Origin: a virus
Virus record (IMG/VR): IMGVR_UViG_3300010885_020050
Span: 1 to 61,724 of that record
DNA length: 61,724 nt
Strand: one strand, 5' to 3'
Shown here one piece after another: positions 3,396 through 34,751 of the stretch. The position numbers were made by a program, and so were the translations under genes. The notes below the pieces were generated by a model. It had not been told where the DNA came from, ran no database searches, and was given only the letters and a program-made list of their open reading frames with translations. Positions within the stretch are counted from its first letter, which is position 1. Each line of letters opens with the position of its first letter.

Positions 3396-3402
3396 TCTGT
3401 AG

Positions 3403-3431: not shown

Positions 3432-3455
3432 ACACACATCTACAAGGAACACTCT

Positions 3456-9904: not shown

Positions 9905-9906
9905 AT

Positions 9907-16084: not shown

Positions 16085-17268
16085 TTTTTGTTGCTGTTGA
16101 TCATATACATCCGGTTACCAGTAGACCTATGCCCAATGGTATACCAGTAGAACTTCATAATCAGCTTGATTTCTTGGATGGAAAACGACTGGATTTTCCC
16201 CGACTGATCTACTATCTACGTGACTGCAAAATACCTGTACAAGTGGGGCGCACCACAGATGCTCCAGTAGGGTCCTGGTACCCAATGGTATTGGGATGGT
16301 TTGATTTTGATCAAGATTATATTGACATGATCTCTGTTGAAGGGCTTGAAAGAATCAAAAGAAAAGAATTCAAATTGATTTTTACCTATCACGAAGGCGA
16401 CCATCCTGGACACATACGAAATCGACTGGACTGGTTGTGCAATCAGCATGGTATTGATCCCAACGTGGTATGGCTGATATCTGGAAATACCACTGCTGAT
16501 CAATATCATAATACCATATATTGGCCTGAACTAGAATTCATGTACTGGCGAACCGTGGATAGAAATGCCGGAGCTAGGTATCATCTCAATCCAAGATCAC
16601 ATGCCTATACTGGACTGTGCAGGATAGACAAACTATGGCGGAAAACATTCATGAGCGATCTTTGGAGTCATGGTCTGCACCACCACGGGTATTTTAGTTA
16701 TACGCAACATCTTTTGGGCAGCGAAGACGACTATCATGGGTGTGCCTTGAGCAATAGTTATCTAGCCAAATGCCAACCCAGGATAGATCAATTTATTGCG
16801 GCCGGGCCGTTCCGTGTGGACAATCTAGATACCCATGCACATAATACCTATGACTTGAATATGACCAACTTGTATATCGACAGTTATTTCAACATTGAGT
16901 TGGAAACCATGATTGATGTTGACAACTCTGGTGGACAATTTGTTACGGAAAAAACTTTCAAACCCATATTCAACAATCAATTCTTTGTGGCAGTGAGTTC
17001 TGTAGATCATCTCCGCCACCTGCGTGATCTAGGATATAAAACTTTTGGTCGTTTTATGGATGAAAGCTACGATACAATTACCAACAATCAAGATCGATTT
17101 GAATCAGTACTTGACCTTACAAAATCATTGATACAGTCTGGTCAGGATAATTTACATCAATTGTATCAAGATCTTGCACCTGAGATACAACACAATTCTC
17201 AAGTTTTCCTTAACGGCATGGGTCATCGATTACAAGCTGTGGTGGATCGTATCAACTACAAACAGTAA
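16081..17268 (+). CDS. Putative glycosyltransferase, TEKxxKPI family (copy B)
   Basis: I chose ATG 16081, which overlaps the previous TGA as ATGA and gives MIFVAVDHIHPVTSRPMPNG (395 aa). The C-terminal signature VTEKTFKPIFNNQFFVAVSS is followed by DLGYKTFGRFMDESYD and NNQDRF, as in copy A and the gene at 24919. Central histidine- and tyrosine-rich stretches (SHGLHHHGYFSYTQHL) are specific to this copy. It is probably a second transferase acting with copy A on the same polymer. The 3' end overlaps the convergent carbamoyltransferase gene by 17 bases, and no terminator lies between them. Confidence 0.75.
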   Translation: MIFVAVDHIHPVTSRPMPNGIPVELHNQLDFLDGKRLDFPRLIYYLRDCKIPVQVGRTTDAPVGSWYPMVLGWFDFDQDYIDMISVEGLERIKRKEFKLIFTYHEGDHPGHIRNRLDWLCNQHGIDPNVVWLISGNTTADQYHNTIYWPELEFMYWRTVDRNAGARYHLNPRSHAYTGLCRIDKLWRKTFMSDLWSHGLHHHGYFSYTQHLLGSEDDYHGCALSNSYLAKCQPRIDQFIAAGPFRVDNLDTHAHNTYDLNMTNLYIDSYFNIELETMIDVDNSGGQFVTEKTFKPIFNNQFFVAVSSVDHLRHLRDLGYKTFGRFMDESYDTITNNQDRFESVLDLTKSLIQSGQDNLHQLYQDLAPEIQHNSQVFLNGMGHRLQAVVDRINYKQ

Positions 17269-18733
17269 TGCCATACAACTGCTGAAATCTATCAGCATCT
17301 GTTCGATCATTTACCATGGGTTCACCACGTATGTTCAAACTGGTATTTAATAGCATAGGGCACCCAGTCATGAAATGCCATTTTTCTAGCAGAGCTCGTA
17401 TTCCTGACCCATCTGCTGGAACTGTTTGTACACGACTAGTGCCGTCATGATGAACAATAGCAGGAAATAATTCTGGATGTCTACAAGTGGCTACCACTTG
17501 CATGTATCTGCTGTTGCTCCAATGTCTAGGCATATCAAAATATTGATCAACATATTCTTCGAGAATAACTGGTGCAAATGGTCTAAACTTTTGCCGTCGT
17601 TTGATTTCGTTTACTTTGTTCTTGATTGAACATCCTCGTGGATCAGCCAGTAGACTCCTATTGCCTAATGCTCTTGGTCCAAATTCTGCACGCCCTGATG
17701 CAACACCAATAATACGATCAGTGAGTAGACCATCAAGTATACTGTTAACAGGATACTCACCAGCAATGTCATGCCCAAGAAAAGCAGTATCCCACCCGAG
17801 ATGACCGCCCATTCCAAGAGCTGCTGCACCAAGACTATTGCCTGCGTCGCCAGGATTGGGCATGATCCAGATGTTTTCATAATATGCCCCCAGGGTGCTG
17901 TTGGCCACACAGTTCAACGCCACTCCACCTCCGTAAACCAGATTACGACTGTGTCCTATCATTCTGGCACGACTGATAATATTTTGTATCAATTGCTCTA
18001 CCAGGAGTTGTGCGCTACAGGCAATGTCCATTATATCTGCATCAGGCAAGAAGTTATCATCAATGCCAATGTGCAAATTTTGCACAAACTGAGAATTGTC
18101 TTTTGAATTTAACAATTGCTGTTGCATCTCTCTAAGATACCGTGGTTTCCCATATGCAGCCATGCCCATGAGAATATATTCTTCATCCAATGGACGTAGA
18201 CCCACACGTTGAGTCATTGCAGAATAAAATAATCCGATACTGTGTGGATACTTCTGACCCCACAACTTGTTATATTCAGCCCGGCCGGTGTGATCATTGT
18301 ACACGGCATCCCATATGGTCACAGTGTCGAACTCACCAATGGCATCAATCACAACCACTGTGGCATCATTGAATGAGCTGGTTTGAAATCCTGCTGCTGC
18401 ATGACACAGATGATGACCATGTGTATGCACACGAGGCCTGCCCATGTGATTATATGTATTGCCTAATAATCGATCCCAGCTAGGCCATTGGAATCCCTCG
18501 CCACTACGCAGTTGTCTAAAGGCTTTGACCCAGGGACGTTCGTAATAATGGTATTCAATCCAGTCTGACTCTACATAAGCTAATGCATCAGCCAATAACT
18601 CTGAACATATATCCTTGTCGTGCTTGTTTTTGCTGTAGCGTTCGCTGTGTGCTGCAAATAAAATATTGCCAGAGTTGTTGACCACGCTGATAGCAGCATC
18701 ATGGAACCCAGCAGATATTCCTATGTAATTCAT
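17252..18733 (-). CDS. NodU/TobZ-type O-carbamoyltransferase
   Basis: The 493-aa protein begins MNYIGISAGFHDAAISVV, the ASKHA start of the family. It has the metal-binding HGHHLCHAAAGF (H107, H111), the kinase-like GGGVALNCVANS near residue 265, GRAEFGPRALGNRSLLADPR near 350 and RPFAPVILEE. All are diagnostic of the carbamoyltransferases that move the carbamoyl group of carbamoyl phosphate, via carbamoyl-AMP, onto a hydroxyl of a sugar or natural product. It is somewhat shorter than NodU or TobZ (about 560-600 aa). It is the last gene of the 15-gene minus-strand cluster, coupled by ATGA to the small gene upstream, and likely adds a terminal carbamoyl cap to the product. Confidence 0.94.
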   Translation of the reverse strand: MNYIGISAGFHDAAISVVNNSGNILFAAHSERYSKNKHDKDICSELLADALAYVESDWIEYHYYERPWVKAFRQLRSGEGFQWPSWDRLLGNTYNHMGRPRVHTHGHHLCHAAAGFQTSSFNDATVVVIDAIGEFDTVTIWDAVYNDHTGRAEYNKLWGQKYPHSIGLFYSAMTQRVGLRPLDEEYILMGMAAYGKPRYLREMQQQLLNSKDNSQFVQNLHIGIDDNFLPDADIMDIACSAQLLVEQLIQNIISRARMIGHSRNLVYGGGVALNCVANSTLGAYYENIWIMPNPGDAGNSLGAAALGMGGHLGWDTAFLGHDIAGEYPVNSILDGLLTDRIIGVASGRAEFGPRALGNRSLLADPRGCSIKNKVNEIKRRQKFRPFAPVILEEYVDQYFDMPRHWSNSRYMQVVATCRHPELFPAIVHHDGTSRVQTVPADGSGIRALLEKWHFMTGCPMLLNTSLNIRGEPMVNDRTDADRFQQLYGITVCS

Positions 18734-18831
18734 TTGTAGATGAAAGGATCACGCTTGCGTAGTTCTTTTAACTTTTTACGATAGCGAATTTCTAGAGTAA
18801 TTTTTGCCCAAAGTCGTCGAATCCAGTTCAT
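18730..18831 (-). CDS. Hidden 33-aa basic protein
   Basis: The ATG at 18831 overlaps the TGA of the upstream gene (ATGA), and its own TGA overlaps the ATG of the carbamoyltransferase gene (ATGA). This gives an exact 33-codon gene between two coupled genes. The product begins MNWIRRLWAKITLEIRYRKK and ends DPFIYK. It is strongly basic, with an amphipathic Trp/Ile/Leu helix, so it could bind membrane, nucleic acid or a partner enzyme. I recall very short phage proteins with similar RRYRKKLKELRKRDPFIYK-type ends, but no function. The double overlap makes chance unlikely. Confidence 0.75.
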   Translation of the reverse strand: MNWIRRLWAKITLEIRYRKKLKELRKRDPFIYK

Positions 18832-19868
18832 TTTAATTTCCTTATTTGTTGTTGTTCATAGTCTGTATCACTCCAGCGATACTTGTATGTAGCTTCACCA
18901 TCACAAGTGCGTATTTTATATACATCTAAGTATTGTGCTAACTGTGCCCATATCACCCGATAGTCTGTGGTACCAAATGTTCGCAATAGATCCACTTGAG
19001 CCACCTTAGGATGGCCAATGGTCAATGATTTGTCCTCTGGATCAAACCCATTCTTTATTAACCAGGTTCTAAATTCGTTAAGAGTTTGAATCTGCCAAGG
19101 AAACGATCCAGGATCATTTGCCCATTCAATATCAAAGTCTCCTGCTGCTTCAGTTTGTGATCGCAATGTAGTTGTAACTAATTCAGACACACGACTATCT
19201 CTCCCTTCATCGTTGAACACTTCCCAATGGTGCTTGCCAACTGCTTTATTTACTCCTACATATATTCCACCCAGCTGACGATTTATTGAATCAATTCCAA
19301 ACAAATTGTAGTCTTCAACATCAAGTGCAAATCTAGGTGCTTGTAACCAACACATTAGCTGTGATGGGCGGCGCCATTCTGGTGCTCTGAGTAATTTACG
19401 TATGCTCAATACCAAACTTTCAAGTTCATGACACAGTAGGTTTAGTTGTCTTATATGCCACCTAGTGCGATCGTCGGCTGCGGTGTAATACGGACTCATT
19501 GCCCCTGATACTCCTTGCAAATCTTCAAAGTATCTGTGAAGTTGATTCATATGTGCATGATTAACTCTGTTATCCTGGGTCATTGTGTCAGTTGGACTGA
19601 AAGAATCGTTTATGGTGTATCCTAGCCCTGCTGCATTGACAGCATCAATACTGCGATTGATTTGGGTACACAAATATTCCAATGTCCGAGCACTTTCGGT
19701 CCACCCTAGCCAACAGTAGTTTTTTTCCAAATGATAGTCTGCACAGATCAACTGATTAAGTGCGGTCATCCATTTACGTGCAAGACTGTTATCGTACACA
19801 TCGATATAAACTGTAAGCAACTGATCATGCACACCGCGCAGATCCATTTCAATTGAGTTGTTAAGCAT
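18828..19868 (-). CDS. Hypothetical protein between radical SAM and carbamoyltransferase genes (346 aa)
   Basis: I do not recognise this family. The N-terminal half is helical (VHDQLLTVYIDVYDNSLARK, then conserved-looking HAHMNQLHRYFEDLQG). The middle has CWLQAPRFALDVEDYNLFGI followed by a beta-rich KAVGKHHWEVFNDEGRD, and the C-terminus has GFDPEDKSLTIGHPKVAQVD. It has no signal peptide, membrane segment or obvious cysteine cluster. The His/Asp/Glu pairs in GKHHWEVFNDEGRD could bind metal. It overlaps the radical SAM gene upstream by 8 bases and the 33-codon gene downstream by 4, so it is an integral member of the operon; an accessory or substrate-carrier role is possible. Confidence 0.85.
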   Translation of the reverse strand: MLNNSIEMDLRGVHDQLLTVYIDVYDNSLARKWMTALNQLICADYHLEKNYCWLGWTESARTLEYLCTQINRSIDAVNAAGLGYTINDSFSPTDTMTQDNRVNHAHMNQLHRYFEDLQGVSGAMSPYYTAADDRTRWHIRQLNLLCHELESLVLSIRKLLRAPEWRRPSQLMCWLQAPRFALDVEDYNLFGIDSINRQLGGIYVGVNKAVGKHHWEVFNDEGRDSRVSELVTTTLRSQTEAAGDFDIEWANDPGSFPWQIQTLNEFRTWLIKNGFDPEDKSLTIGHPKVAQVDLLRTFGTTDYRVIWAQLAQYLDVYKIRTCDGEATYKYRWSDTDYEQQQIRKLK

Positions 19869-21150
19869 TATTCATCCACCATTTTAATACATCAGGTCTT
19901 GCTGCCAGGATATTGGACATTGTGATTGATTGTGTTCTTATCTGTTCTAGTTGTAGAATACGTGCTCGGCCTTTGGTAAATCCTTGTTGATATTCATTGG
20001 GCCATTGTTCTTCAAATGTAGGACGATTCTTTAACTGTATTAGAACAGCCTGCATGGCACCCGACGTATTGTTTATCAATTCGTCTAACCACGGATGCAA
20101 TATATGTCTAGGCAATGCCAATGGACTCATCACAATGTTTGGAGAGAATGAAAAAATAACTTTAGCAAGGATATCTACTCCCTGTTGTTTGGCAAGTTCT
20201 GTAATTCGGCCAACTTCAAACATTCCGGGCAGAGTGAGCGTAAAGTCAATTCTAACTTGTCGAGCATGACGTTGTATTGCAACTGCTCCACGAAAGTTCT
20301 CAAGCCATTTATTGTAGTCAAGACCTGTTCTAATGTACTCGCCAATTGGGCCTGTGCCGTCGAGACTTGCACATATCTGCCAATCCCTAAGCCCAGGAAG
20401 AATGTCGCGATAGAGATTAATCCCACGATACTCAACTCTGGACAAGTTAGTATTATATCTAGCATATACTTTGCTCCCATCTCCCAATTCAATTATGCGT
20501 TGCATGTAGCGCCAATGTTGTTCATACATCAATGGTTCGCCGCCGACCCAATATACTTCTTCAACTCGATGCTGTTCCACAGCGTCTGAAAACTCTTGTT
20601 CAATTTGACTGTCTTGGAATTGGGAAATTTGTTCACGTACTGCGGGCTGCATCCAATTGTTTTTGGAATCTGCCCAGTTGACCATATTGTGAGTTTTTTG
20701 CTCTGACTCCCAGGCGCTGCTTAACATATCGCCGCATGTTCTACATTTAAAATTACACAAATTGCTAAATCTATAATCCCAGCTAACTGGTAATACATCA
20801 CAAGAACCATCATCATGTGTGTTAGACATCAGTTCAGAATATTTATGTTGGAATAAATGCCAAAAATACGTGCGATATACATCTGTATTCAACAGTTGAT
20901 CGTTGCATACTTCGCACTCAGACAGTGTTTCACCTGCTATCATACGTCTACGCACCGACTTCATGTGGTCACTGTTCCAATGCTGAGCCAATGTGATAGG
21001 TATGTAAGTACCTGTTCCAGATTGAGTGTCTATGTACTGTGTAAAATTCTGCGCAGGTTCTCGGCTGGCGCAACACATACGCCTTTCAGTCTGTGGGGAA
21101 AGGTACGTGTGCGTCCACGGTGCCAAACATAAGGTATCAGGTTTTTGCAT
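19861..21150 (-). CDS. Twitch-domain radical SAM protein 1
   Basis: The 429-aa protein has the N-terminal twitch pattern: C8 with PW at 11-12, CC at 26-27 and CEVC at 79-82, probably a second iron-sulfur cluster. The radical SAM motif CNFKCRTC (C132, C136, C139) follows in the context RFSNLCNFKC, then VGGEPL. This is the layout of the phage-associated N-twitch radical SAM family, whose reaction is not known to me. It retains all expected cysteines. It overlaps its upstream neighbour by 14 bases and the unknown 346-aa gene by 8. Confidence 0.92.
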   Translation of the reverse strand: MQKPDTLCLAPWTHTYLSPQTERRMCCASREPAQNFTQYIDTQSGTGTYIPITLAQHWNSDHMKSVRRRMIAGETLSECEVCNDQLLNTDVYRTYFWHLFQHKYSELMSNTHDDGSCDVLPVSWDYRFSNLCNFKCRTCGDMLSSAWESEQKTHNMVNWADSKNNWMQPAVREQISQFQDSQIEQEFSDAVEQHRVEEVYWVGGEPLMYEQHWRYMQRIIELGDGSKVYARYNTNLSRVEYRGINLYRDILPGLRDWQICASLDGTGPIGEYIRTGLDYNKWLENFRGAVAIQRHARQVRIDFTLTLPGMFEVGRITELAKQQGVDILAKVIFSFSPNIVMSPLALPRHILHPWLDELINNTSGAMQAVLIQLKNRPTFEEQWPNEYQQGFTKGRARILQLEQIRTQSITMSNILAARPDVLKWWMNNA

Positions 21151-22348
21151 AATTTAGTAGGTATGCCAATTCCCCATGATCACGATTTAGATCTTGCTGT
21201 CTACGTTGATCTAGCATGCGTATTTGCTGACATGTTTCTACGCCGTCCATGGATTCTCCATTGGTCATAAAGTTGATAATTCTTTCAATTTCTGATTGAT
21301 ATATTGATGGCATATCGCACATGCTGAGATAACTGGCAATTTCTTGTTTGGTTTCTACGGGCAATCGTGAGATTGAGAAATACCACGCATCATGCATGAT
21401 GTTCCAGTATACAAAATCAAATGCTTGTTCAGTTATCCATTGTGCCACTTGATCAAGATATCGCACATTAAACACATTCACAGTGGTGCAACATTGCAAC
21501 TGCAAATTGGGCATGTGCTCACGCATGATCCTGAACCGGTTGATGTTTTCTACCACAGTTTGCCACACAGCATTACTTCGTTGATATTCAAACCTTGCAC
21601 CAATATCATCAATGCTGAATGCCACTTCTACTGTTTTGAAGTGTTGCCATATTTCTGGTCCACGCTCAGGAAACAAGGTGCCATTGGTATTGTAGTGTAT
21701 CTCCACTTGGCCAGCTATACCACGATCCACTATACCTTGCAGCATATCAAAATGCTGATCAATCATGAATGGTTCGCCGCCAGTGAACTCAATATAACGT
21801 ATGTCGTTTAGTATGTGATCAATTTCTGCCCAAAAATGTGTGTTTTCTTTGGGCCAGGCTCCGGCTCGAAGCATCTTGTATGCATGACTGGATTTTTGTT
21901 CTGCTCTTGGCAAAAAAGAAATTTCTTCGCCTGCAAATTGAGAACTTGACCACGATCCGCAGATCCTGCATTTGAGATTGCATATGTTTCCCAGTTTGAG
22001 ATCTAGAAACATCAAGGGTTTGGCATCCCTGGTCCATGGTTCATCTCCAAGAGAATGTTTAAGACGATCCAGCGTATGCATGCGTTTTGATTTGCGACCG
22101 GACTCTTCCTCATTCCAACACCGACGGCAAGTGGTAGGTTTTTTGCCATCTAAAAATTCTAATCGTAGGTTACGCATGTGATTGCTGTTTTGAATATCAA
22201 CAAACTTAGCTGTGGACAAGGTGAATTTATTTCCATTGTTATCTAAGATTTCATCATCAGCTAAACAACAAGGCCTAACTGTGCCAATTGGACTGGCTTC
22301 TATGCTGACCCAAGGCAGCACACAGAATTGATCGTGTGGTGTTTTCAT
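21137..22348 (-). CDS. Twitch-domain radical SAM protein 2
   Basis: The 403-aa protein has C9 with PW at 12-13, CC at 27-28 and CRRC at 74-77. The radical SAM motif CNLKCRIC (C123, C127, C130) is in LKLGNICNLKC, followed by FTGGEPFMID. It is the most canonical of the five twitch proteins (LDLKLGNICNLKCRICGSWS). The start codon forms an ATGA overlap with the upstream gene. Five paralogues in one operon argue for sequential or site-specific steps rather than redundancy. The substrate is unknown. Confidence 0.92.
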   Translation of the reverse strand: MKTPHDQFCVLPWVSIEASPIGTVRPCCLADDEILDNNGNKFTLSTAKFVDIQNSNHMRNLRLEFLDGKKPTTCRRCWNEEESGRKSKRMHTLDRLKHSLGDEPWTRDAKPLMFLDLKLGNICNLKCRICGSWSSSQFAGEEISFLPRAEQKSSHAYKMLRAGAWPKENTHFWAEIDHILNDIRYIEFTGGEPFMIDQHFDMLQGIVDRGIAGQVEIHYNTNGTLFPERGPEIWQHFKTVEVAFSIDDIGARFEYQRSNAVWQTVVENINRFRIMREHMPNLQLQCCTTVNVFNVRYLDQVAQWITEQAFDFVYWNIMHDAWYFSISRLPVETKQEIASYLSMCDMPSIYQSEIERIINFMTNGESMDGVETCQQIRMLDQRRQQDLNRDHGELAYLLNYAKT

Positions 22349-23604
22349 GTTAATGCGTGCAATTCAGGAATCACAGTTAATATTTGTTCTGAGCGTATGG
22401 CATCCAGTTCATGAGTCTTGCGCCAGAACGTATCAATCAAATGTGTATTGTCTGTGGACATCATAAAGTTAACGGCTGATTCAAATCCCACTGTGGCACG
22501 TTGCAATGGATCCCGAGGACGCAACCATTCAATATGCTCCTGATACTTCATGCGTAACTGTTGTTTGTATTTCATTGGTGCAATATCAATTCTATAGAAT
22601 GGAGGATCTTGCAATATATTTACATTGAGATCCTGAGGTTTTATTAATCCACGACTGACCAAGTCTCGATGAAAATCAGGCAGATGCCATGCATTCATAA
22701 TGCTCAGTGTAGGGCTGATATAAAAATCTACCGCAGGGCATATGTCTAACATTTCAAGACGGTTCTTTTCAATTTGATCCCAACGGCTACCTTTTCGTAT
22801 GTATTCAGCATACCGGCCTGACCCATCCAAGCTGGCGCCCACTGATACATTGTCAAACAGTTTCCAGTATTCAAACACACTTTGACCTTTGAGATCTGTA
22901 TGTGTGAAATTTGTATTGTAAATCAGTCTAACATCAAATCTTTCTCTACGCACCAGTTCGTCCAAAATACGATAGTGCTCTTCCATCAACAATGGTTCGC
23001 CACCAGCAAAGTATATTTGCTCAACATAATCCATGTGCGGTAACAACTGTTCCCACATATCAGTTTCTGTTCGGCCGGCATAGTTTAATACTTTGTTGCG
23101 GTCCTTCCAGTCGCCGCCGGCTAATTTGGCCTGATCTTGATACCATTGACTTGAAAAAATATGCCCGCAACTGCGGCATTTAAGATTGCAAAGATTACTA
23201 AAACGTATATCCCAATAAGTCATCTCAAAAGGAGTTTTTTCTATTTTGTTTACATGATGCCCATGATGTTTGTTTGCACTTTTTCTGCCAGAGAAAAATC
23301 CTGATTGTTCTTGTTCGTAACAGCGACCGCATGCTGGATTAGGAGTTTCGCTTAACATGTCAGCTCTTAATTTCTGCATGGGCTGATCTTGCCATATCTC
23401 TTCAAGAGTTTGAGTACGACAATTGCCTACTGGAAATTTCATTTCTGAATGACAACAAGGATATGCTTCCCCGGTAGGATATGCATGCAGATGTATCCAA
23501 GGATAGATACAAAAAGTTTTTGAATCTTCTAATAAGAAACGTTCACGATCGGTAAGATCAATATTGTGAACTAGTTCACTGCTGTTGTATTTGTATTGAG
23601 TCAT
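22345..23604 (-). CDS. Twitch-domain radical SAM protein 3
   Basis: The 419-aa protein has FCIYPW at residues 31-36, CC at 50-51 and CGRC at 92-95. The radical SAM motif CNLKCRSC (C139, C143, C146) sits in DIRFSNLCNLKC, with FAGGEPLLMEEH as the second motif. A His-rich segment NKHHGHHVNK (111-120) is an unusual insertion that could bind metal. It begins 29 bases inside the upstream gene. It resembles protein 1 more than proteins 4 and 5 (shared RFSNLCN context and KVYARYNTN/RLIYNTN-type strand). Confidence 0.92.
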   Translation of the reverse strand: MTQYKYNSSELVHNIDLTDRERFLLEDSKTFCIYPWIHLHAYPTGEAYPCCHSEMKFPVGNCRTQTLEEIWQDQPMQKLRADMLSETPNPACGRCYEQEQSGFFSGRKSANKHHGHHVNKIEKTPFEMTYWDIRFSNLCNLKCRSCGHIFSSQWYQDQAKLAGGDWKDRNKVLNYAGRTETDMWEQLLPHMDYVEQIYFAGGEPLLMEEHYRILDELVRRERFDVRLIYNTNFTHTDLKGQSVFEYWKLFDNVSVGASLDGSGRYAEYIRKGSRWDQIEKNRLEMLDICPAVDFYISPTLSIMNAWHLPDFHRDLVSRGLIKPQDLNVNILQDPPFYRIDIAPMKYKQQLRMKYQEHIEWLRPRDPLQRATVGFESAVNFMMSTDNTHLIDTFWRKTHELDAIRSEQILTVIPELHALT

Positions 23605-24922
23605 ACCAGGATTTTAATTTAGGAAATGTGTAACCAAAGTCTTTGTCTCGACGTTGGTCATACTGTATGTAGAATTGTTTGAAATCGTTTAGCAACTTGG
23701 GCATTTCAAATGATTCTGAATGTGGAGTTTTTACTATGTCAAGATAATCTATCAGCCGTTGTAGATGATTGATTTCATGTTCGTGCAAGAATTCACTGTG
23801 CTGATTGGCCACAAGCCATGTCTCTAATGTGTGTGCATATTGCATACGCATATCATCAGGCAATACCAATGGTGATTGAAAACTAGGAAATCTCAGTATG
23901 TTCAGAGTAAAGCTCAGCGCATCACGCCCGTATTCAGTTTTCCATTGCAGCATGCATTCTAAAAATTGGTCTAGGGTATCCAAGCACAATGCATTGATGG
24001 TGTTCATCACATGTATTCCGCGGAATTGTCCGCTGTCCAACAATCGCTCTACATTGTTTGCCCAGTCATCCCATACTAGACCATCCCTGATGTATTCAGC
24101 TTGTAAGCCTACACTTTCGTTGGAAGTGTAAAGATCAACTTCTAGTCCTGTGATGCTAGCAAGCAATCGATCCAAATCTACTGCTGTGCCCAAATTTGAA
24201 TTGATAGCTAATCGTGTTTGGCTACGTCCAGGATTGTTCTTGAACCAATCAATCAGTTTCCAAGTCTCACCAGACATCAGTGGTTCGCCGCCGGTAATTC
24301 TTAGTTCCTGAAGAGTTTTGTGAAGATCCGTTTCCCACCAGGCAAAGAACGCCTCCACATAAGGATTTGTTTCGCCAAACCGATACAGTTGACTACTTGT
24401 ATGCTCATGAGTAAAGTGATTGCGACCATCAGACACAAGGCCTTTGTAAGGTCCATTTTTATGAATGTCTCGTACCCATGTGCTGCTGAAAGCAGGATTA
24501 CAATAGCTGCAAGCAAATTGACAAGTGCGGTCAAAAGCAATCTCCAAGGTACGGAGGTTGACGTCCTGATCAGGTGGATTGGTATATGCTTCATCTAGAG
24601 CCTTGATGGGATAAATTTTACTCTTGTACACACGGTCGCTGATGGCATCGCTGCCCATGTCCTCAATCTTCCAGCAGTATTCGCAACCTGCAGGACGGTC
24701 ACCTGCCAGCATCTTGCGTCGATCCGCTTTCTTCTGATCAGTATTGTGCAGCAGCTTAGGGTTAGCAGATAACATAGAAATATCCACTAAATGAGCCGGA
24801 GGATGATGGCAACTGGTAGTCATGCCACTCCCTAACCAAATGGTCGCATTGTACCATTTTGCTGCACAAAAACTTGCACTTAGATTGTCTAGTACAGTGC
24901 GTTTAAAATCTAAATCGTTCAC
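23576..24922 (-). CDS. Twitch-domain radical SAM protein 4
   Basis: The 448-aa protein starts at GTG 24922, forming a GTGA overlap with the upstream stop. The twitch region is a variant: C19 in FCAAKWYNATIWL, then CHHPPAH at 38-44 instead of CC, and CEYC at 80-83. The radical SAM motif is CQFACSYC (C134, C138, C141), followed by RITGGEPLMSG. Together with protein 5 it forms a subgroup marked by CxHPPxH, a hint that a histidine replaces a cysteine ligand or that the site binds a different cluster. The C-terminus shares the DQRRDKDFGYTFP pattern with protein 5. Confidence 0.92.
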   Translation of the reverse strand: MNDLDFKRTVLDNLSASFCAAKWYNATIWLGSGMTTSCHHPPAHLVDISMLSANPKLLHNTDQKKADRRKMLAGDRPAGCEYCWKIEDMGSDAISDRVYKSKIYPIKALDEAYTNPPDQDVNLRTLEIAFDRTCQFACSYCNPAFSSTWVRDIHKNGPYKGLVSDGRNHFTHEHTSSQLYRFGETNPYVEAFFAWWETDLHKTLQELRITGGEPLMSGETWKLIDWFKNNPGRSQTRLAINSNLGTAVDLDRLLASITGLEVDLYTSNESVGLQAEYIRDGLVWDDWANNVERLLDSGQFRGIHVMNTINALCLDTLDQFLECMLQWKTEYGRDALSFTLNILRFPSFQSPLVLPDDMRMQYAHTLETWLVANQHSEFLHEHEINHLQRLIDYLDIVKTPHSESFEMPKLLNDFKQFYIQYDQRRDKDFGYTFPKLKSWYDSIQIQQQ

Positions 24923-26034
24923 AGGTTATTTTGAATAAAGTTGGAGAAACGGTACGGGAATTCATCATGTATTTTTGGGCCTATATCAGCCATATGTTGT
25001 TGATTATACTTACTTATTGACTGGGCTGCAACCAGGAATTGATTCAGATCGCTTGAACACAGATCTTCAACCACTTGTGATATTCGATCTAATCGATCTT
25101 GATTGTTGTCTATTTGATCAAATGATTCGTCTATTAGTGTATGATAAGTTTTGAATCCCATGTTACGTAAATCTCTATAGAATTCACGATTGGCCACAAC
25201 CACAAACGGATGACCCATGGCAATAGGTTTATAAATCTTTTCGCTGCGTAAACTGTAAGGATAATCAAATACAGTTTCAGTTATCAAACTAAAATAGGTA
25301 TCAATGTACGGTTCGGCACGAATATATACATCTCCCCATTGGTTGTTGAACAGTTCGTGCTTGATAAACGATTGTTGATATTGGTCTTTAAGACCGTTGA
25401 GATATTGTTCTACTTCATATTCAACTGGCAATAGCTGTATCTCGGATGGTCTGCTTAAGAGATCAGTTTGGTACGTGTGATGATATACAGGAGTTGTATC
25501 TAGATTGGTCCAAAGTGCATGTTCCAATAAATGTGCATCACGCATCTTTTCTATCATGTATTTTCTATGAGGGCGGGTACGTCCATTTAAGAATAGAAAT
25601 TTGTAAGGTTTGGTTGGTTTGTTGTATATTTCATTAATACGATTACCCTGTTCAATATTTTGTTCATAGCCTATTACTCGATTAAGATAGCAATCATACA
25701 CCATGCAATTGAGTTCGGGTTCCATCTCTCCGCAGCCTATCAACAGTAGTTTCTTTTGAGTAATTAACTCTAGGAGTCCTAGGCGTTGACATTGAAGTTT
25801 AAGTACAATTGAACCTTCACTTGGATTGGCCAACACAGGTAAAAAGAATCCTGTTGTGGCCAATTCTTTTATCTTTATGTAATGCTGATTTACTGTTTGT
25901 CTGGCAAAGATTGTGATTGAATTGGCCTGTGGATCGTGCTGATCAAAATCCCAAAATGTATCATCCACCAGATGCTGTATTTCTGGATAAATCTCACAGG
26001 CAGTGTCGCAGATGACTGGTCGATTACCTAACAT
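24919..26034 (-). CDS. Putative glycosyltransferase, TEKxxKPI family (copy C)
   Basis: The 371-aa protein has the C-terminal signature RSEKIYKPIAMGHPFVVVAN followed by NMGFKTYHTLIDESFD and NNQDRLDRIS, the same block as the genes at 14957 and 16081. FLNGRTRPHRKYMIEKM in the middle resembles the conserved arginine-rich strand of exostosin-like enzymes (NGRxRPHR), strengthening the GT-B assignment. It is inserted between radical SAM proteins 5 and 4, with an 11-base overlap upstream and a 4-base overlap downstream, so radical SAM chemistry and glycosyl transfer are clearly co-expressed. Donor and acceptor are unknown. Confidence 0.78.
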   Translation of the reverse strand: MLGNRPVICDTACEIYPEIQHLVDDTFWDFDQHDPQANSITIFARQTVNQHYIKIKELATTGFFLPVLANPSEGSIVLKLQCQRLGLLELITQKKLLLIGCGEMEPELNCMVYDCYLNRVIGYEQNIEQGNRINEIYNKPTKPYKFLFLNGRTRPHRKYMIEKMRDAHLLEHALWTNLDTTPVYHHTYQTDLLSRPSEIQLLPVEYEVEQYLNGLKDQYQQSFIKHELFNNQWGDVYIRAEPYIDTYFSLITETVFDYPYSLRSEKIYKPIAMGHPFVVVANREFYRDLRNMGFKTYHTLIDESFDQIDNNQDRLDRISQVVEDLCSSDLNQFLVAAQSISKYNQQHMADIGPKIHDEFPYRFSNFIQNNL

Positions 26035-27352
26035 GTAAACTACATTGTTTCCACCAAGTTAACATCTCAGGAAAGGTGTTCTCAAAGTTTGTACCTCTAC
26101 GGCGGTCGTGTTCGGTAAAAAATCTATAGAAATCTGCTTGTGCTGTGGGTTGTGGTTGTGCTGATTTCATCCAGGCTATGTCACGTTCTAAGCGTTGCAC
26201 TTCGTAGTCTTTGAATCCATGGAATGGATCATCGGTAGTTTCAAGATTTGCCAACATAAAGTCTCTGGCCTGTTCCAGTTTTGAAGCATAGCTTTCTGGC
26301 AATGTTTGTAGGCTTTGCCATGCAGGCTGTGTTAGAACTGGTGTATCAAACCATACACGTTGATATGTTTTACTGTGTGTTCGACGTAGAGTCAGTATCC
26401 ATTGCATCAACGGCAAAAATCCTGTTACACTTAGATTGTTCATGGTCACAATAAATGTAAGACTATTGCGATATGGGATTTCTGTCAGATATCTTTCTAC
26501 GTTGTTCTGCAATCTTTCAAAATTCAACCCATGCCGAATATATTCTGCCTGCGGTCCAGTTCCTGAGTCAAGACTAACATATTGCATAAAGTGTTCAATG
26601 TTGGTATTGCATAGTCGTTTCACATAGTCAAAGTATTTTTGTGATAATTCAGGCTCTACACTGAAGTTTGAAGTTACTGCCAAATGTAGATCATTTTTAG
26701 GATGTTCCAGCACATAGTCAAACACTCGATAGGTATTCTTGTCCATTAGTGGTTCACCACCGGTCATACGAAAGTGTTTGAGTTCCGGATACAGTGCGGG
26801 CCACCAGGCCCAGAAGGCTTCTACATAAGGGTTGTGATCACGAGAAGGGATAGGCCTGCGATGGCCGCTAAAATGCTCAGGAGCGTTATGGGGAACCAAA
26901 GTAGGAAAGGCGCCGTGGCGTTCAACTTCTTGTTGCCAGCTAGAGCTGAACTGCGGGCTACAATAGCTGCATTTAAGATTGCATGCATTGTTGAAATTAA
27001 CTTCCACATACGATGGTACAACATCTTCTTCTCCGGTTGATTTTTTTATTTTGTCAAAATCTACTGCTGCCCAAGGCTCGCCTGATCTATAATGACGATC
27101 ACTCAGTTTGCCAAGATCTTCCATGTTCCAACAATAACTACATTCACTAGGGCGTTCTTGTTGTAGCATTATTTTTCGTTGTGCTTTTTTATGCTGTGTA
27201 TTATGCAATGCCGCAGGATTGATCGCTATTACATCAGGATCTATCTGGTGCAATGGCGGATGATAACATGAATTATTCAACCCTGTGGTAAGATGTAAGC
27301 TGACCTGTTTCCATTTGGCCAAACATAATGCTGGGCCAAGATCAGCATGCAT
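26024..27352 (-). CDS. Twitch-domain radical SAM protein 5
   Basis: The 442-aa protein is a close paralogue of protein 4. It has C10 in CLAKWKQVSLHL, CYHPPLH at 29-35 and CSYC at 71-74. The radical SAM motif CNLKCSYC (C124, C128, C131) is in NFNNACNLKC, with RMTGGEPLMD afterwards. Both proteins share LHNTxxKKAxRRxML after the CxHPP site. ATG 27352 has no good ribosome-binding site and follows a 32-base gap, the largest inside the operon, so an additional regulatory step here is possible. Confidence 0.92.
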   Translation of the reverse strand: MHADLGPALCLAKWKQVSLHLTTGLNNSCYHPPLHQIDPDVIAINPAALHNTQHKKAQRKIMLQQERPSECSYCWNMEDLGKLSDRHYRSGEPWAAVDFDKIKKSTGEEDVVPSYVEVNFNNACNLKCSYCSPQFSSSWQQEVERHGAFPTLVPHNAPEHFSGHRRPIPSRDHNPYVEAFWAWWPALYPELKHFRMTGGEPLMDKNTYRVFDYVLEHPKNDLHLAVTSNFSVEPELSQKYFDYVKRLCNTNIEHFMQYVSLDSGTGPQAEYIRHGLNFERLQNNVERYLTEIPYRNSLTFIVTMNNLSVTGFLPLMQWILTLRRTHSKTYQRVWFDTPVLTQPAWQSLQTLPESYASKLEQARDFMLANLETTDDPFHGFKDYEVQRLERDIAWMKSAQPQPTAQADFYRFFTEHDRRRGTNFENTFPEMLTWWKQCSLHVR

Positions 27353-27384
27353 CTGTTCGGCAGAAGATAAGAAATTGCTTTTAC

Positions 27385-28347
27385 TCAGATTACCTCCGTT
27401 ACGGTTGTACTATATGTTTGGTTTATTAACAAATTATAATTGTGATCTAGTATGGGTTGCATTTTTTGATACATAGCAACTAGTTTATCTATTGGTCTGG
27501 TTGCTAAATCATCGATAATTTGATAGATTTTTAATAATCTATCTCTGGTTTCGTATCCATCATAATCCTCATCCCAAAAGTCATGAAATGTTTGAAATCC
27601 CATTTGTCTTAGATACGTTAGATGATTCCGAGATGCAAATATTATAAAAGGTTTTTTTAATAACATGGGTCGGGTAGTTTTGTCAGTTGGGAAAAATGTT
27701 CTTCCCATTACATGTGTTTCTCCTACTATATCTACAAATATGTTTTTGTATAATTTAGTCAATGGATCATTATAATCATATCCATTGAACTGTGTATAAC
27801 GATCTTTGCTGGATTGTAATATTGGAAGGTATTTTAATAATTTTGCCGCAAATTCCATAGTATGTATATCATAAGATAGCAATTTATCAAATTCAAATTG
27901 TATCAGTGAATTGTCACTCGTGTTGCATGAAAAATGAATTGTGCTTTGGTTAGGATATTTTTCATTGAGCACGCTGGCCAACGCTAATCTTCCAGCATTG
28001 GGTCGACCATATAAACACATAAAAATCTTTTCTTGATTCCAGCAGTGTAATTTAGGATCAATATCAACTACATATTTTAAACCATTGTAATTATTTTTAT
28101 TGAAACAAAATGTAGGTCCTTGAAAGTTAATTTTGTATTGACTATGTTTTTCCAATGGATTCCAAGTTTTGATAATCACTTGCTCAAAATCAAACAAATC
28201 CAGCAATTTGTATACACCAAGATTTTCTAAATCAATGGCTTCTGACACTATGCTTAGTTCAATGACTTTGTGCTGATTAGCAACCAGATATTCAATAAAC
28301 TCAAATTGATTCCAAAATTTATCATCAACTCCACTTATAACAAACAT
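27385..28347 (-). CDS. Putative glycosyltransferase, diverged TEK-type (copy D)
   Basis: I chose ATG 28347 (MFVISGVDDKFWNQFEFIEY, 320 aa), which forms a TAATG junction with the upstream gene; TTG 28353 is an alternative. The C-terminal signature is partly lost: TRPMLLKKPFIIFASRNHLT replaces TEKxxKPIxxxxPFI, but LRQMGFQTFHDFWDEDYD is intact. FMCLYGRPNAGRLALAS corresponds to the NGRxRPHR strand of copy C. The E-K pair expected to bind the donor is missing, so the enzyme may be inactive or use another donor. It is Asn/Lys/Ile-rich and more AT-rich in codon use than its neighbours, perhaps acquired separately. Confidence 0.7.
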   Translation of the reverse strand: MFVISGVDDKFWNQFEFIEYLVANQHKVIELSIVSEAIDLENLGVYKLLDLFDFEQVIIKTWNPLEKHSQYKINFQGPTFCFNKNNYNGLKYVVDIDPKLHCWNQEKIFMCLYGRPNAGRLALASVLNEKYPNQSTIHFSCNTSDNSLIQFEFDKLLSYDIHTMEFAAKLLKYLPILQSSKDRYTQFNGYDYNDPLTKLYKNIFVDIVGETHVMGRTFFPTDKTTRPMLLKKPFIIFASRNHLTYLRQMGFQTFHDFWDEDYDGYETRDRLLKIYQIIDDLATRPIDKLVAMYQKMQPILDHNYNLLINQTYSTTVTEVI

Positions 28348-29279
28348 TACCAACCTTCTTGCTGACGTATTACATCTATTTCTCTTACCATAACGCCACG
28401 ATTGTGCCAGTTACTACGATAGTGATGTTTGAAAAATGCACTGGCTTCTACAGTGAGCAGGTGCATGGGCAGATCCAATTGTGTGTGCAATTCGTTGGCA
28501 ACATTGTTACTCACATGTTCAGGTTGTTCATCTTTTACAGTATTCCATAGTTCTGCTAATGCATCAAAATTTTGTACCTGTAAGTAATCCCATGCTGTCA
28601 GCATGGTCATATATGTGCCTTGTCGGGCGCCAGCTATAGCCCAATATCCATAGTCTGTATCTGCTCCTACATTGTGCCAAATAGTGAGATGGTCAAGATT
28701 GCGTTGATGAACCCGAACTTGAAACTCAGTCACAGTGGGTCTGCGACCTCGATCCAAACACATCTTTACACCTTCTCTAAATCCTGCACGCCAAGCATGG
28801 AATGCCGATCCATTGGGGTATGTGGTTGAGTAGCAGTCATGCATAGACCAGTACAACGGATCAAAACAAAACTCAACCTGTGTTTCTGTGCGGCCGTCGG
28901 TATTTTCATGCGTGTGCATGTCTTGCACATAAGTCCTAGTCCATGAACTCAACCCACCATTACCATACATGAGTCCATTCACGTGGTTACGTGCTCTCCA
29001 TCTAAATACAGCATGTTCATGATCTTTGGTGGGAAATGATAATGTTTGATTAAAGAACTTTGGATCAGGAAGGTTATCTCCATCAATCAAGATAAAACGT
29101 TCAGTAGTGCTGACATCAGCTGCTGCTTTATGGGCAGCATCACTACCTTTGACTCCGTCTACTCGAGTGGCCCAAGGAACCATATTCTTAATTTTAACCC
29201 AGTGTTCTTCCTTTTGTGGTTCATCATAACTTAGATACACGCAATCTAAGTCTGCAATATCAATTTGTGTCAACGACAT
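28347..29279 (-). CDS. GT2-like glycosyltransferase (GT-A type)
   Basis: The 310-aa protein begins MSLTQIDIADLDCVYLSYDE. A nucleotide-binding style strand (YLSYDEPQKEEHW) is followed by RFILIDGDNLPDP, where DGD is the metal-binding DxD motif of GT-A glycosyltransferases. TTYPNGSAFHAWRAGFREGV near residue 175 aligns with the C-terminal domain of the 864-aa repeat protein (SPYHTWRTAFREVSKL), which lacks DGD. This copy looks catalytically intact. It overlaps the upstream small gene by 20 bases and joins the next gene through TAATG. Donor unknown. Confidence 0.78.
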   Translation of the reverse strand: MSLTQIDIADLDCVYLSYDEPQKEEHWVKIKNMVPWATRVDGVKGSDAAHKAAADVSTTERFILIDGDNLPDPKFFNQTLSFPTKDHEHAVFRWRARNHVNGLMYGNGGLSSWTRTYVQDMHTHENTDGRTETQVEFCFDPLYWSMHDCYSTTYPNGSAFHAWRAGFREGVKMCLDRGRRPTVTEFQVRVHQRNLDHLTIWHNVGADTDYGYWAIAGARQGTYMTMLTAWDYLQVQNFDALAELWNTVKDEQPEHVSNNVANELHTQLDLPMHLLTVEASAFFKHHYRSNWHNRGVMVREIDVIRQQEGW

Positions 29280-29604
29280 TTTCTTTTTTCTTCCAATATC
29301 GGCCTGGTTGTTGATCGACTACAATAGTCACATCATTCGAATGGCAAAGTACACCAGAGTTTCTGGGTACAAGTTTAGTTATTCTGGTTTGTTGCTGGCG
29401 TACTAACTTTCCGTCAATAATCTTGACTGATTGGTCTTGTAGTACAAACTGCTCAGGAGTGATATCAATATGTTTACCGGGTAAATCTTCATGGCTATAA
29501 AACAATGGCTCGCCAACATCATTGTAGTAGAGTCTATAATATACTGATTTAGGTTCAGGCCACTGAAAGATTTTCCAAAATTCCAAGAATTCTTCTTCAG
29601 TCAT
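29260..29604 (-). CDS. Small hypothetical protein (114 aa)
   Basis: ATG 29604 overlaps the upstream GT8-like gene by 8 bases. The sequence begins MTEEEFLEFWKIFQWPEPKS, then VYYRLYYNDVGEPLFYSHED and LPGKHIDI. I recall this YYRLYYDxxGxPLFYSxEDLPG pattern from small phage proteins next to glycosyltransferases, without a known function. A basic C-terminus (RYWKKKENVVDTN) follows. It is predicted as a beta-rich soluble protein and is probably an accessory factor of the cluster. Confidence 0.8.
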   Translation of the reverse strand: MTEEEFLEFWKIFQWPEPKSVYYRLYYNDVGEPLFYSHEDLPGKHIDITPEQFVLQDQSVKIIDGKLVRQQQTRITKLVPRNSGVLCHSNDVTIVVDQQPGRYWKKKENVVDTN

Positions 29605-30370
29605 GTTGCCAATCCTTCACATGATAATGCACTGCACCCCATTGTGCTACAGTGTTGATTCTCAACGGATTCAATTCCCATACTAATTCTTTTGTCCAAT
29701 TGTGTGTTTGAGTTGGAATCACATAGCGTTTCATATGTACCATGCGTGGATATGTTGCAAAGGGCATGGTCACACGATCGGCACCCATGATCTGTGCTGC
29801 CATAGCATATACCAAGTCAGTTGAAGCAACTTCGTCAGGAAATTTTAACAGAGTTTTGTAGTTGGTCCAATGTTCAAAAATCTTTTGAACCAATCGAAAA
29901 AACTCTTGTGCCGTTTCACTCACCCTCCAGTATGTTATAGCATTATAAACGTCTGGCAAGTTGTTGGTATCAAATACTTTTCTGTAAAATCTGCTGTCGG
30001 CTGGTTGATCATAAAAGTCTCTGGCGCCAGTGGATATTACTACATCTCGATGTTCAAACATAGTCCACCAATGATCTATAGCACTGGCAATGACCATGTC
30101 TGCTTCTAGTTTGATAGTTTGTCTAAACGGGCTTGCACCAAACACTTGCCAATCACTGGCATAAGGATTGTCACTTGGCGGAAATGCAAAAGTTTTATGG
30201 TAGTTGAATAGATCAGAATCGTGTTCTTCAGTATTGGTTAATAAACAAATTTCAGCATCAGGGTGGAAATGCCTAATAGATCGAGCCAACTGATTGGCAC
30301 AAGCAACATAGTCTATTGTGTCAGAGTTTTGTGCAACAATAATATACCCGCGTTCAGACTGGATTGGCAA
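29597..30370 (-). CDS. GT8-like glycosyltransferase with modified DxD
   Basis: The 257-aa product begins PIQSERGYIIVAQNSDTIDY after a TTG start at 30370. TTG is preferred because TAGGAG lies six bases upstream and no ATG occurs nearby. YVACANQLARSIRHFHPDAE and TIKLEADMVIAS follow the glycogenin/GT8-type layout, but the metal motif reads E-A-D instead of D-x-D, which may alter metal use. QWGAVHYHVKDW at the C-terminus is the usual HxxGxxKPW-like end region. It overlaps the upstream gene by 17 bases and the downstream gene by 8. Confidence 0.75.
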   Translation of the reverse strand: MPIQSERGYIIVAQNSDTIDYVACANQLARSIRHFHPDAEICLLTNTEEHDSDLFNYHKTFAFPPSDNPYASDWQVFGASPFRQTIKLEADMVIASAIDHWWTMFEHRDVVISTGARDFYDQPADSRFYRKVFDTNNLPDVYNAITYWRVSETAQEFFRLVQKIFEHWTNYKTLLKFPDEVASTDLVYAMAAQIMGADRVTMPFATYPRMVHMKRYVIPTQTHNWTKELVWELNPLRINTVAQWGAVHYHVKDWQHD

Positions 30371-31157
30371 TGATATCTCCTAGATATTTTTTCCCCATGG
30401 CATGAAAGTCCATGCCATGCCACTCCATCTTTTTTGATTGACCTTGATCTTGATATTTGATTTCAAAATGATCTACACCAATTTGTAAGAGTTCATGCTC
30501 GGGCAACACACTGGCTAAACTCCAGGGTATGCTGTGTACTTTTAATGTGTGTCCACTTACTATGCCTAATGCAATGCTGAGTGCATAATCATTACGATAA
30601 TTAGAGCCTTGTATGTGGTATAAATCTCGATAGTGTATCCAGTTTTGTTTGACCATGTTCATACAATCAAAGATGTATTGTGCAATATTACCTTTGCGAA
30701 ACATCATTACTGTGGCCCACCACATGGGAAATTTATTCTGCCCAAAATAGTTTAATCCTTCAAATTGATTGATGGCTGCAACATCCCAGGCCAGGCGATG
30801 ACACGCAAAGTCTTGCGACATATCAAGCACATTTTTTAATTCATTGCTACAAACAACATAGTCAGCATCCAGCACTAGAGTTTGATCCCAAGGAGTCAGA
30901 CTGTATGCATCTGTTCGTCCAGCATTGTACCATGTGATGGTTTCTTTGTAATCATCAAAATATCTTGTGCCACCGCTGACGGGATCTGCATGTATCACTT
31001 GGTCAAACTTGTGTAGCTTAGATTGATCTAAACAGTCAGTTATTACTGCTACCGGAATACCAAGATGACGACGAATACGATCAGCACTCCATGACGCCAT
31101 ACCTACATAGTCAGTGAGTTCGTTGTTGAATGCAAAGATTACAGCGCCAGTGGTCAT
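30354..31157 (-). CDS. GT8-like glycosyltransferase
   Basis: I chose ATG 31157 (MTTGAVIFAFNNELTDYVGM, 267 aa). The open frame extends upstream to a TTG, but that part overlaps the previous gene. The metal motif TLVLDADYVV (DAD) is intact, preceded by WYNAGRTDAYSLTPWDQ, as in GT8-type retaining transferases. It is paralogous to the gene at 29597 (shared Ala-rich first strand, TDYVGMAS versus IDYVACAN). The ATG overlaps the TGA that would end the upstream small gene if its frameshift were repaired (ATGA 31157-31154). Confidence 0.78.
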   Translation of the reverse strand: MTTGAVIFAFNNELTDYVGMASWSADRIRRHLGIPVAVITDCLDQSKLHKFDQVIHADPVSGGTRYFDDYKETITWYNAGRTDAYSLTPWDQTLVLDADYVVCSNELKNVLDMSQDFACHRLAWDVAAINQFEGLNYFGQNKFPMWWATVMMFRKGNIAQYIFDCMNMVKQNWIHYRDLYHIQGSNYRNDYALSIALGIVSGHTLKVHSIPWSLASVLPEHELLQIGVDHFEIKYQDQGQSKKMEWHGMDFHAMGKKYLGDIIANPV

Positions 31158-31174
31158 CGTTTTTTGTTTAATTC

Positions 31175-31458
31175 TTAATGCTCTACCAACCAAGCATTCA
31201 TTTGCTCTTGCCAATGGCTGTGTGCCAACAACTGTAAATCCTTATGTTTACTTTGACCGGAGTTTCATAAAGATCTAGCAATACCACTTGTTCTTCGGGG
31301 CAAGCATGTAATAGTGCAATCAGTTCAGGACCTGCACGCCACATACCGCCAGCATGTGCAAATAGCATTTTAGCTTCATATTTTTCTTTTAACACACGAC
31401 GTGCAGCCGCATGGTCGAACCGGGCTCGCGCATGAGCAAGTAAGTTGTCAGTATTCAT
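31175..31458 (-). pseudogene. Frameshifted small gene, first of the minus-strand cluster
   Basis: As sequenced, the frame from ATG 31458 ends at 31198 (86 aa). The first 71 residues (MNTDNLLAHARARFDHAAAR..., FAHAGGMWRAGPELIALLHA, VVLLDLYETPVKVN) match a small family I recall from T4-like phages. After VKVN the frame reads IRIYSCWHTAIGKSK. One extra base near 31245 would instead give KDLQLLAHSHWQEQMNAWLVEH, ending at a TAA (31175-31177). Past that stop the restored frame continues ELNKKR to a TGA overlapping the next gene's ATG. This indicates a one-base deletion, real or a sequencing error, and possibly a later nonsense change. Function unknown. Confidence 0.7.
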
Positions 31459-31464
31459 TGATGT

Positions 31465-31493
31465 ATTATAAACAAAAAAAGGGCAAAAGTCTA
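31465..31493 (-). promoter_or_regulatory. Candidate promoter for the glycan/radical SAM cluster
   Basis: On the minus strand TAGACT (31493-31488) and TATAAT (31470-31465) are 17 bases apart. The -35 has two mismatches. It is embedded in the loop and stem of the terminator of the upstream fibre gene. The expected start point is at or near the ATG 31458, so the mRNA would be leaderless or the first small gene poorly translated. No other promoter-like site is seen for the following 14 kb. Confidence 0.5.
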
Positions 31494-31503
31494 CCTTTTG
31501 CCC
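31474..31503 (-). terminator. Rho-independent terminator of the structural block
   Basis: On the minus strand GGGCAAAAG (31503-31495) pairs with CTTTTGCCC (31489-31481) around a five-base loop, followed by seven T residues (31480-31474). It lies 18 bases after the stop of the fibre-like gene at 31521 and separates the tail/baseplate operon from the glycan cluster on the same strand. Confidence 0.92.
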
Positions 31504-31520
31504 TTGTGGTGTTTAGCCTA

Positions 31521-32504: not shown

Positions 32505-32516
32505 GTCAGTTTCCTA

Positions 32517-33932: not shown

Positions 33933-33981
33933 ATTGCTTGCTCCGAATCTTATAGGTATTTATTACCTGTTAATCTACACA

Positions 33982-33989
33982 TATTTATG
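33982..33989 (-). promoter_or_regulatory. Candidate T4-type late promoter
   Basis: On the minus strand the octamer CATAAATA matches the T4 late consensus TATAAATA at seven of eight positions. It lies 50 bases before the ATG of the fibre gene at 33932 and contains the TAA stop of the upstream gene (33987-33985). A gp55-like sigma factor that would read such boxes is encoded at 60729. Confidence 0.45.
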
Positions 33990-34739: not shown

Positions 34740-34751
34740 GATTTATTTACC

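Follow-up and report, generated by a model that had tools for sequence, protein, structure and literature searches.

What use could a virus have for five radical S-adenosylmethionine (SAM) enzymes encoded in one row with a carbamoyltransferase and proteins that resemble glycosyltransferases? The question is raised by a 61,724-base virus record of IMG/VR (IMGVR_UViG_3300010885_020050; the whole stretch is called the window below), in which a block of minus-strand genes running from 31458 down to 17252 had been described as an operon in an initial annotation. Jumbo and marine phages with many radical SAM genes have been reported, with no role assigned to them in the accessible portions of the reports. 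Our comparison with related viruses shows that the operon is a real, widespread and single system. The explanation that we prefer, with a probability of roughly 0.4, is that a group of uncultured jumbo phages possesses a dedicated system which assembles a saccharide in the cytosol and tailors it by radical chemistry, the acceptor most likely being a virion protein.

The operon consists of 14 open reading frames (ORFs) rather than the fifteen genes counted earlier, and their order from 5' to 3' is u86, gtF, gtE, u114, u310, gtD, rS5, gtC, rS4, rS3, rS2, rS1, u346 and carb (names coined in this analysis; ORFs were called down to 60-70 amino acids). The overlapping of nearly all junctions, as first described, is borne out, since 11 of the 13 overlap by 4-29 bases, the two gaps being 32 bp between gtD and rS5 and 94 bp between u346 and the carbamoyltransferase gene. 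The same block is found in the 191,975-bp contig L001, which represents the same virus and is 99.96% identical over 16.6 kb.

When IMG/VR was scanned with rS3, 138 relatives were confirmed; the 80 best (L001-L080) were reduced to 58 non-redundant loci, and 47 of these span the region from u310 to the carbamoyltransferase gene. The nine core genes u310-rS5-gtC-rS4-rS3-rS2-rS1-u346-carb have one order and strand in all 47 spanning loci. Adjacency is also kept upstream, for gtF and gtE in 47/47 cases and for u86 and the gene in front of the operon, s327, in 30/30. With u346 as anchor, at least 551 relatives were confirmed in IMG/VR, and the system is therefore widespread there. A second set, made of the best 80 of these u346 matches and four more loci, contains 50 loci on other contigs (redundancy kept), of which 15 span the region; the order is kept in 15/15 and every gene in 13/15, and two spanning loci, L087 and L167, have no gtC match. 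Some of the contigs that carry relatives are up to 350 kb long. The median dN/dS is 0.07-0.19 in the 13 genes measured, which indicates purifying selection. The single-system reading of the initial annotation, which had proposed a search for the same gene order, thus stands, and the relatives do not carry the genes scattered; an order preserved over dozens of diverged genomes exceeds what chance would give. A near-identity search of INPHARED with the 14-kb operon gave no match.

Within this fixed core, sugar-related cargo is exchangeable at hotspots. The spans contain 210 inserted ORFs, 87 of them after u310, 42 after rS2, 21 after rS5 and 18 after rS3. When 75 cluster representatives of 196 variable ORFs were scanned, 14 matched radical SAM proteins and five short-chain dehydrogenase/reductase (SDR) epimerases, and hexapeptide transferases, a UDP-sugar dehydrogenase, sugar kinases, DegT proteins and methyltransferases were also among the matches listed (the first 25 of 46 families). 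The operon gene gtD (27385..28353, minus strand), with an EK-KPI motif, belongs to the cargo and not to the core, a gtD-like match being present in 32/80 loci.

All five radical SAM proteins, encoded on the minus strand by rS1 (19861..21150), rS2 (21137..22348), rS3 (22345..23604), rS4 (23576..24922) and rS5 (26024..27352), match the N-twitch family NF033640 with 286.5, 323.4, 386.8, 289.3 and 318.5 bits, respectively, well over the curated cut-off of 170 bits. The CX3CX2C motif and the N-terminal cluster cysteines on which the twitch-type assignment had been based are invariant in 56, 58, 49, 59 and 52 sequences of the rS1 to rS5 families, so that this part of the first description is confirmed. 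Each family has in addition at least one further invariant cysteine (rS1 260, rS2 287, rS3 289, rS4 313, rS5 248 and 437). An extra cysteine of this kind is the hydrogen donor in some radical SAM epimerases. In a quick tree built from ten sequences of each rS family, every family forms one branch with a support of 99-100 and a long stem, which indicates that the five are separate old paralogues and not copies, and they may well catalyse five distinct steps. The predicted structure of rS3, the sole rS protein modelled, is poor (pLDDT 56.6, residues 1-163 under 50), and a search of PDB sequences with rS3 gave no significant match. Fourteen large records, among them that of the virus of the window (L001) and no fewer than two pairs of near-duplicates (L037/L038 and L025/L027), each have 7-19 matches to the N-twitch family, in the core and elsewhere, some of them below the cut-off. 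The 320,175-bp record L071 has the highest number, 19.

The last gene of the operon (17252..18733, minus strand) encodes an O-carbamoyltransferase of the NodU/TobZ type, as had been recognised from its motifs; both Pfam cut-offs are exceeded, with 121 bits for PF02543 (cut-off 24) and 160.5 bits for PF16861 (cut-off 27). The HxxxH and GPRALGNRS-type motifs are intact, and H107, H111, G352-G357 and R359 are found in 48/48 sequences and N358 in 46/48. Against the NodU equivalog NF041651 the protein scores 124 bits, below the cut-off of 1000 bits. The most similar carbamoyltransferase of INPHARED (48.5%) lies on a 7,955-base single-cell fragment of Marine virus AG-345-D19 (L082), where the gene immediately after it encodes an N-twitch-like radical SAM protein and is interrupted at the contig end. 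In Phage C48C1 a gene for a radical SAM/SPASM protein (L083, 12136-13122) is found about 1.6 kb from that of a NodU-like carbamoyltransferase.

The proteins that would transfer sugars are gtF (30354..31214), gtE (29597..30370), u310 (28347..29279), gtC (24919..26034) and the cargo protein gtD, all from the minus strand, and from motifs they appear to be glycosyltransferase-like. By this measure gtE, gtF and u310 resemble GT-A proteins, with a DGDN motif in the very conserved u310, and the conserved gtC has NGRxRPHR and TEK-KPI motifs. The one structural hint, obtained for gtE and gtF, was glycogenin with a non-significant E of 0.18, and gtE matches phrog_1903, a family of unknown function. Searches of PDB sequences with u310 and gtC gave nothing significant; tblastn searches of INPHARED with u310, gtB and gtC gave no match, and one with gtE gave a single match at E 8e-3. 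A kinship of gtE to a GT8 protein of Vibrio phage K566 was considered and found no support in a comparison of profile hidden Markov models (HH comparison; probability 0.8%, P 0.067). TAL-effector matches of A8, whose best stretches covered 1-42 positions, were taken as a repeat artefact and dropped.

Two small ORFs of the operon have no assigned function, the conserved u114 (29260..29604) and the first ORF, u86 (31198..31458), both on the minus strand. In the window u86 has 86 amino acids, whereas it can be read at 101-104 amino acids in 32/32 loci measured, L001 included (the ATG nearest 101 amino acids was chosen in each locus). The shortening results from a one-base difference near 31244 relative to the longer contig L001, and the TTG start of the adjoining gtF is doubtful for the same reason.

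The minus-strand block of 17252-31458 agrees with the limits first drawn, but the system is not confined to it and reaches over 7382-17268. Convergent to the operon lie gtB (16030..17268) and gtA (14957..16084) on the plus strand, each with an EK-KPI motif and possibly glycosyltransferase-like by that motif, and next to them u864 (12364..14958, minus strand), a protein of 864 amino acids that has 213 amino acids in common with u310. Matches to u864 of more than 40% identity occur in 59/163 loci, many of which repeat a contig. Beyond these, on the plus strand, lie sugar-nucleotide genes for a cytidylyltransferase-like protein (7382..7885), an SDR epimerase/dehydratase (7882..8859), a DegT-type aminotransferase (8783..9904), a DesII-like radical SAM protein (9907..11289) and a second DegT-type aminotransferase (11259..12371), which by their families suggest a deoxyamino-sugar route. 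The DesII-like protein scores 348 bits against TIGR04426, over positions 29-458 of the 468 of the model, and misses the equivalog cut-off of 450; its gene is present in 2/163 loci, one of them from the same virus, many of the loci being too short or repeating a contig. At the far end of the window (1365-4742) an AAA/MoxR-like ATPase gene lies near that of a DUF2201 metallopeptidase-VWA protein.

On its other side the operon follows a tail-fibre module with the gene order big-s203-s471-s327, of which s471 (32517..33932) and s327 (31521..32504) are on the minus strand. The four proteins match gp355 (BLAST E 1e-100), gp357, gp359 and gp360 (profile E 5e-38, 5e-56 and 8e-26) of phage PA5oct, s471 being the homologue of gp359 and s327 that of gp360, and all four are annotated with electrospray ionisation tandem mass spectrometry (ESI-MS/MS) in the PA5oct record. 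PA5oct differs in that gp360 is followed by hypothetical ORFs on the opposite strand, and no Pseudomonas phage was among the records matched by rS3 or carb. For the late sigma factor, the isolates that come nearest are jumbo phages such as Phosso, Hallingskeid, Atu_ph07 and the PA5oct group; for a virion protein at 59033-60619 they are members of the PA5oct and 121Q groups. With 30.3% serine and threonine, s327 has the highest content of these residues among 29 window proteins compared, and the content is at least 26.7% across 35 loci; s327 may be regarded as the leading candidate acceptor, with s471 as a further candidate.

The tail-fibre module and the operon are separated, on the same strand, by a terminator-like hairpin with a T run (31479..31505) and a sigma-70-like promoter, TAGACT-N17-TATAAT (31465..31493). 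Judged from the window by itself the promoter does not stand out (one such site against 0.7 in shuffles), while a promoter layout with a spacing of 17 is found upstream of the block in 32/32 loci, with a mean score of 9.7 of 12 against 6.9 in shuffled sequences, the loci being related and single shuffles reaching 8-11. A simple hairpin pattern was matched in 24/32 loci and does not catch the window's own hairpin, and an Rfam scan of 17000-35000 gave no match. The window contains no copy of the T4 late motif TATAAATA, where 3.09 would be expected, even though it has a gene for a T4-type late sigma factor, and the motif therefore provides no argument for late control.

Taken together, these features could be explained as follows. 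The sugar-nucleotide genes, those at 7382-12371 here and other sugar genes in the relatives, would supply variable building blocks, from which gtE, gtF, gtC, u310 and the hotspot cargo would build a glycan attached to an acceptor inside the cell. The five non-redundant N-twitch enzymes would then perform distinct radical steps, for example oxidation, epimerisation and deoxygenation, on the sugar or on a sugar-bearing protein. The cyclophilin-like u346 would hold or fold the protein substrate, and the NodU/TobZ-type enzyme would cap a hydroxyl with a carbamoyl group, the order of the steps given here being a proposal. An intracellular protein seems the acceptor that fits best, and it would be a virion protein, foremost the threonine-rich tail-fibre-module proteins s327 and s471 encoded just upstream. 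Of the carbamoylated glycan product first suggested, a carbamoylated and sugar-related product remains likely, and among the roles listed with it the modification of a virion component appears favoured by the position beside the tail-fibre module. A bolder version is conceivable but on balance doubtful, namely that the virus rewrites its own tail-fibre proteins, five radical SAM enzymes and a cyclophilin-fold holder installing carbamoylated, radical-tailored saccharides with a fixed core and exchangeable outer sugars.

Several observations weigh against this explanation. The initial annotation had counted five glycosyltransferase-like proteins, and the motifs are indeed present, but matches to known families are not: gtC, gtD, gtE, gtF and u310 gave no Pfam match at E 0.05, and no glycosyltransferase family emerged at E 0.1 when relatives (39 and 38 members) were scanned. 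The surroundings of N-twitch genes outside the core are mixed, with genes for ClpP and RecA next to those for sugar enzymes: among 122 neighbouring proteins there were eight matches to ClpP, five to RecA, four to GT8, four to mannose-6-phosphate isomerase and three to epimerases (20 regions from among the matches listed, in which 122 of 176 ORFs of at least 120 amino acids that are not rS-like were scanned). The operon has a promoter-like element of its own with a terminator in front, which argues against simple co-transcription with the genes for virion proteins. We found no report of virion modification in this phage group, and the family absences that bear on the alternatives below rest on records that are possibly incomplete and partly near-duplicate.

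To these points must be added those that concern u346 (18828..19868, minus strand). No sequence family, cyclophilins included, was recognised for it, Pfam (E 0.05) and the sequences of the PDB (E 1) both being without a match, and a Foldseek comparison of its model (pLDDT 86.6) with the PDB gave no match at E 0.001. VIA-align places 40 rows first, with Z from 9.2 to 6.7 and 137-151 residues aligned, before Z drops to 5.1; best Z values of 7-8 are common for models with no clear match, and a cyclophilin-like fold is for this reason probable and not proven. In 32 of the 40 rows the title names a cyclophilin or a peptidyl-prolyl isomerase; the other eight comprise seven chains of large assemblies and Cpr7. 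Residues from about 57 to 162 lie outside the cyclophilin match and by our reading of the model form a helical insert. A protein of this kind may hold a substrate. Among phage models, ten match u346 by Foldseek with an E of 0.001 or less, and one of these belongs to Atu_ph07, a phage grown on Agrobacterium C58. A tblastn search of INPHARED with u346 gave no match, and profile searches of genome contigs with u346 and rS3 gave no confirmed relative.

Among the alternatives, remodelling of the host surface, in which lipopolysaccharide or capsule would be altered in order to block superinfection or change adsorption, deserves attention first, although we consider it unlikely. The variable sugar cargo is reminiscent of O-antigen diversity, the sigma-70-like promoter could permit expression ahead of virion assembly, and glycosyltransferases adjacent to tail-fibre genes, with radical SAM cassettes in the same region, have been read in this way in the accessible part of a study of pelagimyophages (PMC7029224). 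The possibility was also put forward when the operon was first described, and is weakened because neither the flippase PF01943 (control matched in 13/14 genomes) nor the undecaprenyl sugar transferase PF02397 (control matched in 9/14) was detected in any of the 14 large records, though host enzymes could supply these steps. Membrane-like segments, moreover, were found in none of the operon proteins and in only 2/198 inserted ORFs.

An improbable alternative, too, is a modification of the kind seen in ribosomally synthesised and post-translationally modified peptides (RiPPs), where the radical SAM enzymes would act on a virion protein or small protein (u86, u114 or s327) guided by the cyclophilin-like partner, and sugars would be secondary. 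Several peptide-maturase models give weak scores with the rS proteins, the probable fold of u346 might bind peptides, and phage 332-Vera, in the portion of its description available, has its radical SAM genes in a structural cluster (PMC12390700). Against such a scheme speak the glycosyltransferase-like genes, the carbamoyltransferase gene and the sugar-gene cargo that share the operon.

Modification of DNA, another of the roles first suggested, would mean that a modified base is the target of the carbamoyl, sugar and radical steps, and we regard it as quite improbable. A TobZ-like phage enzyme carbamoylates 5-hydroxymethylcytosine, and the excerpt of that report at hand describes the pathway as co-occurring with the hydroxymethylase/synthase family PF00303 (PMC8670742), which is absent from all 14 large records (control matched in 9/14). 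Because PF00145 is absent from 14/14 as well (the controls of the four absent families matched in 9-13/14), the proposal is weakened further; the same excerpt mentions unmodified contigs that also have carbamoyltransferases flanked by glycosyltransferases (PMC8670742). A search for the TET oxygenase family, in which the control gave no match, was left unused. A diffusible saccharide or aminoglycoside-like metabolite produced during infection is very hard to sustain. The DesII-like enzyme, the DegT aminotransferases and the carbamoyltransferase form a set that we take to be reminiscent of antibiotic sugar pathways, but the operon has no exporter-like or membrane protein and the DesII-like gene is rare.

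The saccharide-assembly and radical-tailoring system that we favour can be compared with several phages. Vibrio phage K566 is alike in that its four N-twitch-like radical SAM genes (L081, 13458-23752) alternate with glycosyltransferase genes, two of the GT8 family that exceed the cut-off and a weak GT4-like one below it, and Vibrio phage K567 likewise has four radical SAM places. K566 is different in that no carbamoyltransferase, u346 or u310 profile match was found within the stretch examined, and its radical SAM proteins form a branch of their own in the tree, apart from rS1-rS5. The Aeromonas veronii phage 332-Vera is described as having eight radical SAM genes among its structural genes, a finding 'highly unusual' in the words of its authors, who place this giant phage in a nucleus-forming family (spelled Chimallinviridae) and in the accessible text propose no function (PMC12390700). 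Pelagimyophages carry glycosyltransferases and radical SAM cassettes in a tail-fibre region described as hypervariable in the available part of the report (PMC7029224), as opposed to the fixed core here. HTVC008M, taken together with them here, has a carbamoyltransferase gene among those for a glycosyltransferase, a methyltransferase and UDP-glucose dehydrogenase, whereas the rS profiles have no match in the stretch examined. The marine T4-like TARA_ERS488813_N000010 has 12 radical SAM genes within an iron-sulfur gene set, and the portion of its description at hand mentions no glycan operon (PMC5332604); other jumbo phages are reported, in similarly partial sources, with single or few radical SAM genes (PMC6143709, PMC5468394).

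Glycosylation of virions is itself known from mycobacteriophages, where glycans are found on capsid and tail-tube subunits (Freeman et al. 2023, via PMC12619734), and differs from our system in that no radical SAM or carbamoyl steps are described in the excerpt through which that work is cited. The aquatic 'moraphages' of the latter source have four core glycosyltransferase groups, and its accessible text contains no mention of 'radical SAM' (PMC12619734). We found no description of the conserved cluster in a literature search that left most subscription journals outside. Phage saccharide operons are of a kind already known, while the core of five radical SAM enzymes and its probable cyclophilin-fold partner are new. 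The fixed five-enzyme core turns an oddity into a testable pathway with defined parts, namely rS1-rS5, the candidate holder u346, a capping enzyme and adjacent candidate acceptors. If the explanation is correct, radical chemistry would be added to what is known of virion glycosylation, and the operon would be a source of new sugar- or protein-modifying enzymes.

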